This document shows positions 35,494 to 38,701 of a stretch of DNA of 40,838 nucleotides, one piece after another. The stretch covers positions 1 to 40,838 of the forward strand of contig JAMCYP010000003.1 in assembly GCA_023476545.1 (NCBI GenBank), given 5' to 3'. The stretch is from Candidatus Martarchaeota archaeon (GTDB lineage: Archaea; Micrarchaeota; Micrarchaeia; Micrarchaeales; CABMGC01). The notes beneath the pieces are model-generated. The model was not told the DNA's origin. It worked only from the letters and a program-made list of their open reading frames with translations, and did no database searches. Made by a program: the position numbers and the translations under genes. Each line of letters opens with the position of its first letter. Positions within the stretch are counted from its first letter, which is position 1.

Positions 35494-36534
35494 ATGGCCT
35501 ACAACACCTTCCTGACGCTGCTGGTGCCCGCATTGATCACGTTCATAATCACGCTTGTCAGCACAAAGTTCGTGATAGGCTACCTGACATCTTCAGGCAT
35601 AATCATCGATGACAAGAACAAGGAGAAGAGCGTGCCTCTTCCGACGAGCGGCGGAATAGCCGTGGCGTTCGGGATAATAGTTGGAATACTAGTCTATGCG
35701 TTCGGCGGCACATTCATCTTCACTCCGGTGGTCCAGATATCTGACCTGTTCGCCGTGGGGCTGGCCATCCTTCTCATCGCGCTCGTCGGGTTCCTCGACG
35801 ATATACACATCAAGGCAAGGAAGGTGATGACAACCGACCTGCTGGACAAGAAGCAGGGGCTTAGGCAGTGGCAGAAACCGCTCCTCACAGTGATAGGCGC
35901 GCTGCCGCTCATGGCCATCAATGCGGGGGTGAGCGTTGTGGCTGTACCTTTCCTTGGCACACTGGACCTGGGCATAGCCTACCCGTTGGTGGTGCTGCCG
36001 CTCGCGGTGGTCTTTGTGTCCAACGCGTTCAACCTGCTCGGCGGATACGACGGACTGCAGACCGGAACCGCGCTCATCGCAAGCATCGGGTTTCTCATCT
36101 ATTCTATCTTCTTCGGGAACTACATAGGCGCGCTGCTCTCTGCGATACTCTTCGCTTCAGTGCTCGCATTCCTGCCATTCAACACATACAGGGCCAAGAT
36201 AATGCCTGGAGACAGCTTCACCTATGCGATAGGCGCGATCTTCGTAGCAATAATGGCGATGGGAAACGCTGAGGATTTCGGAGTAATACTCTTCATACCC
36301 TGGATAATAGAGTTCTTCCTGCACCTCAGGAAGAAGTTCCACACCACCGACCTGGGCGTGAGGCAGAGGGACGGAACCTTCAAGGCTCCTTACGGCAGGA
36401 AGATATACAGCCTCACCCACCTTGTGATGAATCTCAAGAGGGCCACTGAGATAGATATCGCGCTCTACCTGTCGCTGCTGGAAGTCGTCTTTGTGCTCCT
36501 GGGCTTCGGGCTCAAGCTCGGCGGGTTCCTGTAG
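35494..36534 (+). CDS. UDP-GlcNAc:dolichyl-phosphate GlcNAc-1-P transferase (AglH/Alg7-like)
   Basis: 346-residue polytopic PNPT-family enzyme that puts the first sugar phosphate on the lipid carrier and starts N-glycan assembly. Key motifs: VPLPTSGG (47-54), the Asp pair in GFLDDIH (Asp102/103), NAFNLLGGYDGLQTG (177-191) with its catalytic Asp, and a C-terminal PYGRKIYS loop after HLRKKFHTTDLG. About ten membrane helices. The position of the family among archaeal AglH/Alg7 proteins, not MraY, is judged from the NAFNLLGGYDGL motif. Its last 70 bases are read on the other strand as the tail of a histone. Confidence 0.9.
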   Translation: MAYNTFLTLLVPALITFIITLVSTKFVIGYLTSSGIIIDDKNKEKSVPLPTSGGIAVAFGIIVGILVYAFGGTFIFTPVVQISDLFAVGLAILLIALVGFLDDIHIKARKVMTTDLLDKKQGLRQWQKPLLTVIGALPLMAINAGVSVVAVPFLGTLDLGIAYPLVVLPLAVVFVSNAFNLLGGYDGLQTGTALIASIGFLIYSIFFGNYIGALLSAILFASVLAFLPFNTYRAKIMPGDSFTYAIGAIFVAIMAMGNAEDFGVILFIPWIIEFFLHLRKKFHTTDLGVRQRDGTFKAPYGRKIYSLTHLVMNLKRATEIDIALYLSLLEVVFVLLGFGLKLGGFL

Positions 36535-36746
36535 ACGATCCTCTTGGAGAAGAGCACGTCCTGCTTCTTGATCAGCGTACTCCTGCCAGCGTGAGCCGCA
36601 TACCTCGCCGCCCTGTTTGCCATCAGCTCGGTCAGCTTCTCGAGCCTGCGTTCAAGGTCGCGGACAGCATCTTCGGTTACCCGCTCTGCGCCCGCCTCTC
36701 TTATGAACTGCTCAATATCGTAAAGACTGAATGCCCTCTCCCCCAA
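36465..36746 (-). CDS. Archaeal histone with an overprinted C-terminal tail
   Basis: 93-residue histone-fold protein. FSLYDIEQFIREAGAERVTE (6-25) is helix 1 and the loop; DAVRDLERRLEKLTELMANR helix 2; then AHAGRSTLIKKQDV (51-64) with the HAGR-x-T-x4-x-D motif and short helix 3. Normal archaeal histones end there at ~67 residues. This one goes on with VYRNPPSLSPKPRSTKTTSS and SDR (71-93), a Pro/Ser/Thr/Lys/Arg-rich, unstructured tail resembling eukaryotic histone tails. The tail is encoded almost exactly by the 70 bases that overlap the convergent transferase gene. The start is TTG, right after an in-frame TGA, with GGTG about seven bases upstream and a TATA box at 36793-36804. Confidence 0.85.
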   Translation of the reverse strand: MGERAFSLYDIEQFIREAGAERVTEDAVRDLERRLEKLTELMANRAARYAAHAGRSTLIKKQDVLFSKRIVYRNPPSLSPKPRSTKTTSSSDR

Positions 36747-36830: not shown

Positions 36831-37223
36831 TCACTTCTGCGCTATCTGACGCACAGAGAGCCCGCTATCCACGCTCGCTATAACATCGAAATCCTTGTCT
36901 GCCGCAATGAGAGTTGCGTTTCTTTCGGCGGCTTGCGCCGCGATGAGCAGATCTGGCAGCTTTACCGTTTTCCCCTTATTGCTGAGCAGAGCAAACGAAG
37001 CAGAGGCGCGTTTCGCGTCTCTTGAAGTAAGCGGTACGACTGGAAATGCCGCCACTTCTCCAGGAATTCCTCCTTTTCTCTCCTTTGCTTTCAGCCCTAT
37101 GAGCACTTCAAAAACACTTATCGGGCTTACGTTCGCGCTCTCCGAACTCTCGATGGCGTCTTCTACTTCTTCATTGCCGTGCATCAGCTCCACAATCGCC
37201 GAAGTGTCGAGAAACAGCTTCAT
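36831..37223 (-). CDS. vapC: VapC toxin (PIN-domain RNase)
   Basis: 130-residue PIN-domain ribonuclease. The acidic site is complete: LDTSAIVEL (Asp6), SVFEVLIG (the Glu), LPDLLIAA (Asp) and AADKDFD (Asp). The ATG overlaps the VapB stop (ATGA), so toxin translation is coupled to antitoxin. VapC toxins cut tRNA or rRNA when freed from VapB. The sequence looks intact. Confidence 0.93.
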   Translation of the reverse strand: MKLFLDTSAIVELMHGNEEVEDAIESSESANVSPISVFEVLIGLKAKERKGGIPGEVAAFPVVPLTSRDAKRASASFALLSNKGKTVKLPDLLIAAQAAERNATLIAADKDFDVIASVDSGLSVRQIAQK

Positions 37224-37441
37224 GGCGCACCACCCCAGCCATATCTTCGCGTCCTGTCTATCATGCGCCTCATCTCTTCAGCTTCTTCATGCGTTAGTAC
37301 CCCTGCTACTCTCAGAAGTGCCCTTTTCCCGGACTCTGCGCGCTTTGCCGATAGTTCTGCTAGCAGCTCGCTAAAGCTTTTCTTGCCTTTCATCCTCGCC
37401 AGTCTGTTGTACACGTCATCTGTTATCATTATGGTTCTCAT
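37220..37441 (-). CDS. vapB: VapB antitoxin (PF02697-like)
   Basis: 73-residue antitoxin. TIMITDDVYNRLARMKGKKS followed by FSELLAELS is the N-terminal DNA-binding pattern of the archaeal VapB family. The C-terminus (EEMRRMIDRTRRYGWG) would occupy the VapC active site. It is read first in the operon, as expected, and has a strong dyad upstream for self-control. It lies 57 bases after the aRF1 stop with its own promoter. Confidence 0.88.
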   Translation of the reverse strand: MRTIMITDDVYNRLARMKGKKSFSELLAELSAKRAESGKRALLRVAGVLTHEEAEEMRRMIDRTRRYGWGGAP

Positions 37442-37498: not shown

Positions 37499-38701
37499 TT
37501 ACTTATAGCGCAGAAGCGCTCCGATTCCCTTGAATCCCATGATGAACTCCTTCCCAAGCGAGCTCTCGCTAGAGACGAACACTGTCTCTGCTCCGTTGCC
37601 GTCCGCAAGGTCTATCAGCTCCTCTATTGCGTCGTGCTCCTCTACCACCGAGAGCGTGCCGCCGTCATCGTGCTTTGCCTGGCGCACGTCTCCGAACTCT
37701 GTCCTCTCTATCACGTTGCCGCAGACGCTGCATTTGTACTTCACGTTAGCTATCTCTACAGTGTCGTTGAGTATCAGCGTGTTCGCCTGCCTCTTCTCCA
37801 GTGCGACCCTCGTCTTCTCGTATCCGTACACGGCCAAGCCTCCGCTAGCGACCTCTCTCATGAACCTCTCCAGAACCTTCCTCTCCTTCGCTGCCTCCTG
37901 CTCCTTGAGCAGGTCTCCGGCCTTCTCTACTATTTCGTTCAGTCCCGTCTCATCGGTGTAGCCGGTGTCGTAGACGCCCAGTACCTTGATCTGGTAGTTG
38001 AGCGCCTTCGCCTTCACGAAGTTCTCTTTTGTGGGTCCCGGACCGCCGACTATCAGCCCGAGTTCCTTGAACTCACTCCTCAGGAAAATCTCGTTTATGA
38101 CCTCGCTCACCCTTCCATAGTAGTCCTCTATGCTCTCCTCAATAGCCCGCTTGAACCTGTTCGCCGACTGCCCGCCCTTCTTCATCTTTGCGTGTGCCAT
38201 CGAATGTACTTTCTTTATCACCTGTATGTGAGATCCGCGCAGCGTCGCTACTGTCGCCTCCCTGCCGTCGAGCACCACCATCACGTACGTGTCCTTCGTG
38301 TCCACCATCGCCTCTATCGGATCCAGCACGAAGGTGGAGTCGCATCTGTATATGTTGACCTTGAGCGGCTCCGGAGGTTCCATCGAGAAGAGCTCGATGT
38401 CGCTCTTGCTCTGGTCGTTCGAGACGTTGCCCGCGAACACCACGAGACCGTTCTCTGGAGTCTCGCGGTAGAGCTTCAGGTACTGGAGTATCTTGTCGAT
38501 TGCGCCGAGGACGTTCGTCCTTGTCTGCTTCGACTTTATGTTGCTGCTGGTGCTGTACTCGTTCCTCAGCCTTGATACCTCTTCGTTGATGTTGTAGCCC
38601 GCTGGTATGTAGACGCTTACCAACTGCGTCCCGTAACCGCGCACCGACTTGAGCCTCTTTATCTCCTTGAGCAGCGAGTACTCTTTCTTCATGGCAGTCA
38701 T
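37499..38701 (-). CDS. prf1: Archaeal peptide chain release factor aRF1
   Basis: 400-residue class I release factor that reads all three stop codons and triggers peptide release. Domain 1 has the GT(Q) loop (GYGTQLVSVYIP), NIKS (54-57) and YRCDSTF, the Y-x-C-x3-F motif. The catalytic GGQ is at 176-178 in KKGGQSANRF. The C-terminal minidomain keeps one Cys pair (CSVCGN) but I do not see the second pair of a four-Cys zinc site. The start at 38701 directly follows the upstream gene's TAG; the second ATG three codons on is an alternative. It is third in a SerRS-methyltransferase-aRF1 run. Confidence 0.95.
   Translation of the reverse strand: MTAMKKEYSLLKEIKRLKSVRGYGTQLVSVYIPAGYNINEEVSRLRNEYSTSSNIKSKQTRTNVLGAIDKILQYLKLYRETPENGLVVFAGNVSNDQSKSDIELFSMEPPEPLKVNIYRCDSTFVLDPIEAMVDTKDTYVMVVLDGREATVATLRGSHIQVIKKVHSMAHAKMKKGGQSANRFKRAIEESIEDYYGRVSEVINEIFLRSEFKELGLIVGGPGPTKENFVKAKALNYQIKVLGVYDTGYTDETGLNEIVEKAGDLLKEQEAAKERKVLERFMREVASGGLAVYGYEKTRVALEKRQANTLILNDTVEIANVKYKCSVCGNVIERTEFGDVRQAKHDDGGTLSVVEEHDAIEELIDLADGNGAETVFVSSESSLGKEFIMGFKGIGALLRYK

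Follow-up and report, generated by a model that had tools for sequence, protein, structure and literature searches.

An archaeal histone tail overprinted on a convergent transferase gene, with a probable origin by stop-codon loss

Introduction

Convergent genes can come to overlap through mutation of a stop codon, and genome-wide statistics of such overlaps were given by Lillo and Krakauer 2007 (PMC2174442). The phase designated (123:213) is the rarest in those data, making up 18% of the convergent overlaps longer than 4 bp. Among archaeal histones, a 2018 survey described the C-terminal tail of M. jannaschii, 28 residues long, as seemingly unique (PMC6136690). We found no earlier report of an overprinted histone tail in a search of open-licence papers, and a paper on a cultured micrarchaeon makes no mention of the histone.

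Here we analyze a histone gene that runs into a convergent neighbor, in a window of 40,838 nt (contig JAMCYP010000003.1, positions 1 to 40,838), by which we mean the whole stretch of DNA analyzed. The source genome is a 761 kb Micrarchaeota metagenome-assembled genome (MAG) in 25 contigs, 87.5% complete, and all genomes compared with it are MAGs as well. The original prediction for this locus, made from the letters of the window, was that loss of the histone stop codon let the gene read into its neighbor and gain a disordered, basic tail.

Results

The histone gene lies on the minus strand from 36746 to 36465, with a TTG start, a TAG stop and 93 codons. It matches Pfam PF00808 over residues 11-64 with 25.2 bits, compared with a curated cut-off of 21.4, and can be aligned with HMfA, HMfB and HPhA; judged by its sequence, the 93-aa reading frame is a genuine archaeal histone. 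Since the Pfam match reaches residue 64 and the HMfA alignment spans residues 10-69, the fold ends near residue 67-69, in line with the originally predicted 67-70. We accordingly take the fold as residues 1-69 (36540-36746, minus strand), for which the HMM match covers 69 model positions and AlphaFold2 places helices at 8-17, 25-52 and 61-64. In this single-chain model, built from 16 sequences, no helix of at least four residues follows residue 64, and residues 71-93 have a pLDDT of about 52-58, consistent with disorder. The tail carries a net charge of about +4 and is rich in Pro, Ser, Thr, Lys and Arg, as had been described. A second histone in the same genome is 64 aa long and tailless. Directly upstream of the histone, a PIN-domain toxin and a VapB-type antitoxin are encoded at 36831-37441 on the minus strand, and beyond this pair, at 37499-38701 on the same strand, lies a 400-aa protein that by eye resembles archaeal peptide chain release factor 1.

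The convergent gene, on the plus strand at 35494-36534, encodes a 346-aa glycosyltransferase of family 4 (GlcNAc-1-P transferase type; PF00953, E 8.8e-30) and ends with a TAG stop at 36532-36534. The two genes share 70 bp, 36465-36534. The length of overlap originally claimed is thus correct, but of codons 71-93, which had all been assigned to it, codon 71 (Val) contributes a single base, and it is Tyr72 to Arg93 plus the stop that lie wholly inside the transferase gene. This is the overprinted tail (36465-36534, minus strand, antisense to the transferase C-terminus), delimited by sequence, comparison and low pLDDT. Between fold and overlap stands a short spacer, codons 70-71 (36534-36539, minus strand), 5 nt ahead of the transferase stop. 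In f1, the family to which the window belongs, this spacer measures 2-50 nt, and wherever the genes overlap its length is 2 modulo 3. A sequencing or frameshift error, named beforehand as something that would undo the prediction, can be rejected: the same overlap is present at 42 other f1 loci.

In the (123:213) phase, transferase codon positions 1, 2 and 3 lie opposite histone positions 2, 1 and 3. Because wobble base faces wobble base, one transferase codon almost fixes each histone residue: Leu gives Ser or Arg, Val gives Thr, Phe gives Lys or Asn, Gly gives Pro, Ala gives Ala and Glu gives Ser. The residues of the tail are therefore set by the antisense of the transferase. The same rules create a switch at the junction. 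Specifically, a transferase stop TAA or TAG imposes TAN on the facing histone codon, the third base of which pairs with the wobble position of the transferase's final sense codon, so that the histone codon reads Tyr if that sense codon ends in A or G and stop if it ends in C or T. A TGA stop imposes CAN (His or Gln), which is never a stop. In the window the last Leu codon is CTG (36529-36531) and the switch codon is Tyr72 (TAC, 36531-36533, minus strand); CTC or CTT would have produced a histone stop, TAG or TAA. Once the switch is open, the next possible histone stop lies 70 bp in, opposite a conserved transferase Tyr codon (36466-36468). This is where the window's histone ends, with a TAG at 36465-36467 on the minus strand, and its third base pairs with the wobble base of the transferase Leu codon 36463-36465. 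At the level of sequence, these genes demonstrate both the switch mechanism and read-through to the conserved Tyr.

A profile of the fold found matches in 158 of the 164 genomes of the order, and we analyzed 146 loci, 141 from the order and five from outgroups. Excluded from the statistics was one locus (L134, from G064) where two histone fragments in one open frame are joined across unknown bases. Another MAG, MAS1.bin34, holds the locus in two near-identical copies (L014 and L016), probably from strain mixing. In f1 the histone overlaps the transferase in 43 of 73 loci, by 70 or 73 bp and always in one phase. The basal f1 lineages (G002, G004 and the genus g7) are tailless. Two genomes, G009 and G010, show what was predicted for the pre-state: their histone stop shares 4 bp with the transferase stop and sits at the switch codon, where overlapped genomes have Tyr, His or Gln, and their spacer of 8 is also that of several overlapped genomes. 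A histone stop near codon 70 in related genomes had been expected to refute the prediction; such genomes exist, and look like the state that preceded the tail. Together with the tailless basal lineages, they uphold the proposal of stop loss followed by read-through.

The sister family f2 presents a different picture. Tails of at least 12 aa occur in 63 of its 68 loci and, leaving aside six overlapped ones, average 38 aa with 29% Lys plus Arg (K+R); many overlap the transferase little or not at all, or have no transferase within the fetched stretch. For self-encoded tails of close pairs, most of them from f2, with an acidic-tailed genus (g23) in addition, dN/dS is 0.18, compared with 0.03 for the fold, which marks these tails as genuine constrained protein. 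That genus belongs to f1 (L095, L096, L097, L099 and L101), and its orthologous histone has an acidic tail (DDKELDDSISENM...), not a basic one, which lies outside the transferase overlap and is under purifying selection between close pairs. The families also differ where the second helix ends, with NYAGR in f2 loci such as L086, L105 and L113 and HAGR in f1, a position reported to be important for dimer-dimer contact in archaeal histones. Because the f2 tails are longer, more basic and separately encoded, overprinting does not account for every tail in the group: the predicted birth of a histone tail by overprinting holds for f1, not for the C-terminal tails of the order as a whole.

The f2 tails could also be read the other way, with a C-terminal tail ancestral to the order, the tails of f1 and f2 a single trait, and the end of the transferase encroaching on a tail that was already there. 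The abundance of f2 tails away from any overlap fits such a history, and when no outgroup is included, a three-state model reconstructs a self-encoded tail for the root of f1 and f2 (0.98). However, basal f1 is tailless, the five nearest outgroup histones extend only 1-8 residues past the fold, and in overlapped f1 genomes the part that could be a remnant, the 2-50 nt spacer, contains 10% K+R, so that a self-encoded tail is almost gone, and the residues of the tail match the antisense of the transferase. We regard an ancestral tail as unlikely.

On a tree built from the fold and from the transferase without its last 30 residues, the reconstruction makes the ancestor of a crown of 60 f1 genomes overlapped (0.98) and the node that unites this crown with g7 tailless (0.67), with modest support for the basal f1 branches (95/66, 89/59 and 82/76). 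The direction from tailless to tailed is therefore likely, with a polarity made uncertain by the modest basal support and by genus g25, which falls now in f1, now in f2, from tree to tree. This genus (L048 and L074) combines an f1-type histone with a transferase carrying the f2-type motif EWEVS.YMW, tail state is not the same in its two sister genomes, and ancestral retention or gene exchange are both possible. Overlaps were gained independently in f2 (G101, G124, G141/G142, G096 and G102), in each case with a TGA transferase stop, and once more outside the crown, in G075, which puts the recurrence of stop loss elsewhere at about 5-6 times. Within the crown the tail was lost or truncated several times (G040, G038, G039/G041, g8, G013 and G023), which shows that it is dispensable. 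Overall, stop loss at a 4-bp convergent junction is the explanation that we consider best and hold to be probable.

Is the composition of the tail itself an adaptation? The overlap encodes on average 4.98 Lys plus Arg, compared with 5.03 expected when the transferase codons are resampled synonymously from each gene's own usage, so the transferase dictates the composition. Similar peptides result when the same antisense frame is read in genomes where it is unused. At transferase-synonymous sites the purine/pyrimidine mismatch is 0.470 where the histone residue changes and 0.468 where it does not; we detect no constraint on residue identity beyond that of the transferase, and selection for Lys and Arg within the overlap can be rejected on both counts. 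The original prediction had called the tail eukaryote-like, which fails as a sign of adaptation for these reasons, and the extension is C-terminal rather than N-terminal. That membrane helices read antisense in this frame are, as a rule, strongly basic proved only weakly true: the net charge is about +1.6 per 22 codons whatever the hydropathy, which makes the last helix, rich in Leu and Phe, above average in basic charge. The dN/dS of 0.21 for the histone frame of the overlap is not counted as evidence, being lowered by the transferase constraint, and the value of 0.38 for the spacer, from few sites and gapped alignments, is weak evidence.

Forced composition and unconstrained residues are what one would expect if the extra residues were a functionless by-product of read-through, tolerated in a compact genome. 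The repeated losses in the crown point the same way, and mutated stop codons are already known to generate convergent overlaps neutrally (PMC2174442). The frame's edges tell against this. Among crown genomes that are in phase, with a spacer open to the junction, a set that closed cases could also enter, the switch codon is open in all 31 with a TAA or TAG transferase stop, where codon usage predicts 15.7 (P = 2.5e-4 with one genome per genus). As controls, a purine ends the last transferase codon in 3 of 13 crown genomes with TGA, and in 17 of 36 (18.7 expected) where the frame does not reach the switch codon. Likewise the end stop is kept in 39 of 39 overlapped crown genomes, 18.7 being expected and 27 of 42 controls having it (Fisher 3e-6; one per genus, 2e-5), and in all seven other overlapped genomes. 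Both the switch base and the base that decides the end stop are sites free for the transferase. Changes of spacer length in the crown were in frame about 24 times and out of frame 6 times, with one third expected in frame (p 2e-7); raw p-values here are too small, because related genomes are not independent, and the one-per-genus values should be used. The statistics thus show a frame kept beyond what the transferase demands, open, in phase and with the same end, its residues unrefined. Selection on the frame beyond the transferase had been predicted, and is found at the edges but not in residue identity. The open switch codon, the kept end stop and the in-frame spacer changes are not expected of a neutral by-product, which the edge-site statistics disfavor and which we rate as quite improbable.

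Constraint at the edges alone would also arise if selection acted on the ends of translation or of transcripts instead of on the peptide, either through ribosome run-through or through avoidance of a stop-stop clash. Yet genomes of f2 and g7 often retain the 4-bp stop-stop arrangement (G116, G120, G132, G146, G147, G159, G009 and G010), so that it is evidently tolerated, and in one genome, G050, a tail persists away from the junction. Here an intact transferase lies 114 nt past the histone stop, while the tail is still open and equally basic, and its antisense can still be read as a decayed transferase C-terminus (YICAIGIFFILCALGLIFLLL*). In this one MAG the tail was apparently freed from the overlap by duplication of the transferase end. 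Its survival after leaving the overlap also speaks against a functionless by-product. Selection on ends, to which we assign a chance as slim as that of the neutral account, is thus not our preferred reading; we return to stop loss with a retained peptide.

Discussion

The events that we propose would begin with convergent histone and transferase stops sharing 4 bp. Loss of the histone stop at this junction would create the tail, a single base change, synonymous or almost synonymous for the transferase, being enough to toggle roughly 22 residues. Read-through would run for 70 bp and end at the antisense of the conserved transferase Tyr, and the antisense of the transferase's last membrane helix supplies a basic, disorder-type peptide from the outset. 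Since the tail originated in the crown of f1, selection has, by the statistics, held the frame open, in phase and with the same endpoint. The full account, in which a tail born by overprinting through a one-base silent switch was kept, recurred and was once freed by duplication, we consider slightly favored by the odds. The tail may add a loose electrostatic contact with DNA; charge, predicted disorder and the f2 tails give this putative role a roughly even chance, and the Lys/Arg-rich tails of f2 presumably contact DNA likewise.

The locus offers a natural test case for the origin of disordered histone tails, with the states before, during and after the event in closely related genomes, a switch thrown by point mutation, and an internal control in genomes where this antisense stretch goes unused. 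It shows that a new tail can persist as a length of frame while another gene dictates its letters, and that basic, disordered composition alone is no evidence of adaptation. An order-wide set of archaeal histones with C-terminal tails is added to those known.

How does the locus compare with known systems? With HMfA and HMfB (PF00808) the window histone has in common the three-helix fold, but these have no tail. The histones of the MJ1647 type in Methanococcales carry a C-terminal extension of similar length, about 27 aa (PMC10516927), which however is folded into two helices and makes tetramers, whereas the tail in the window is predicted to be disordered and is rich in Pro, Ser, Thr, Lys and Arg; at pLDDT 52-58, no such helical tetramerization module is seen in it. 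Asgard and other archaeal histones also have basic disordered tails, but N-terminal ones (PMC6136690, PMC11390915), while this one is C-terminal and overprinted. Antisense overprinted genes of E. coli (laoB, PMC5810103; PMC9927249) similarly place new coding sequence antisense to an older gene, but they are whole new reading frames, whereas here an old gene was extended. The closest likeness is to the convergent overlaps of PMC2174442, with which the histone case shares its mechanism, the 4-bp stop-stop pre-state (CTAA, TTAA, CTAG or TTAG) and the phase class; what differs is the focus on a single locus traced through an order, where the edges of the frame are under selection and one tail has apparently escaped the overlap. 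Stop-codon mutation, the 4-bp pre-state and the phase class were thus known already. New is a histone tail arising from such an overlap, and one that, by the comparison of these genomes, appears to be kept for its length and its end, not for its letters.
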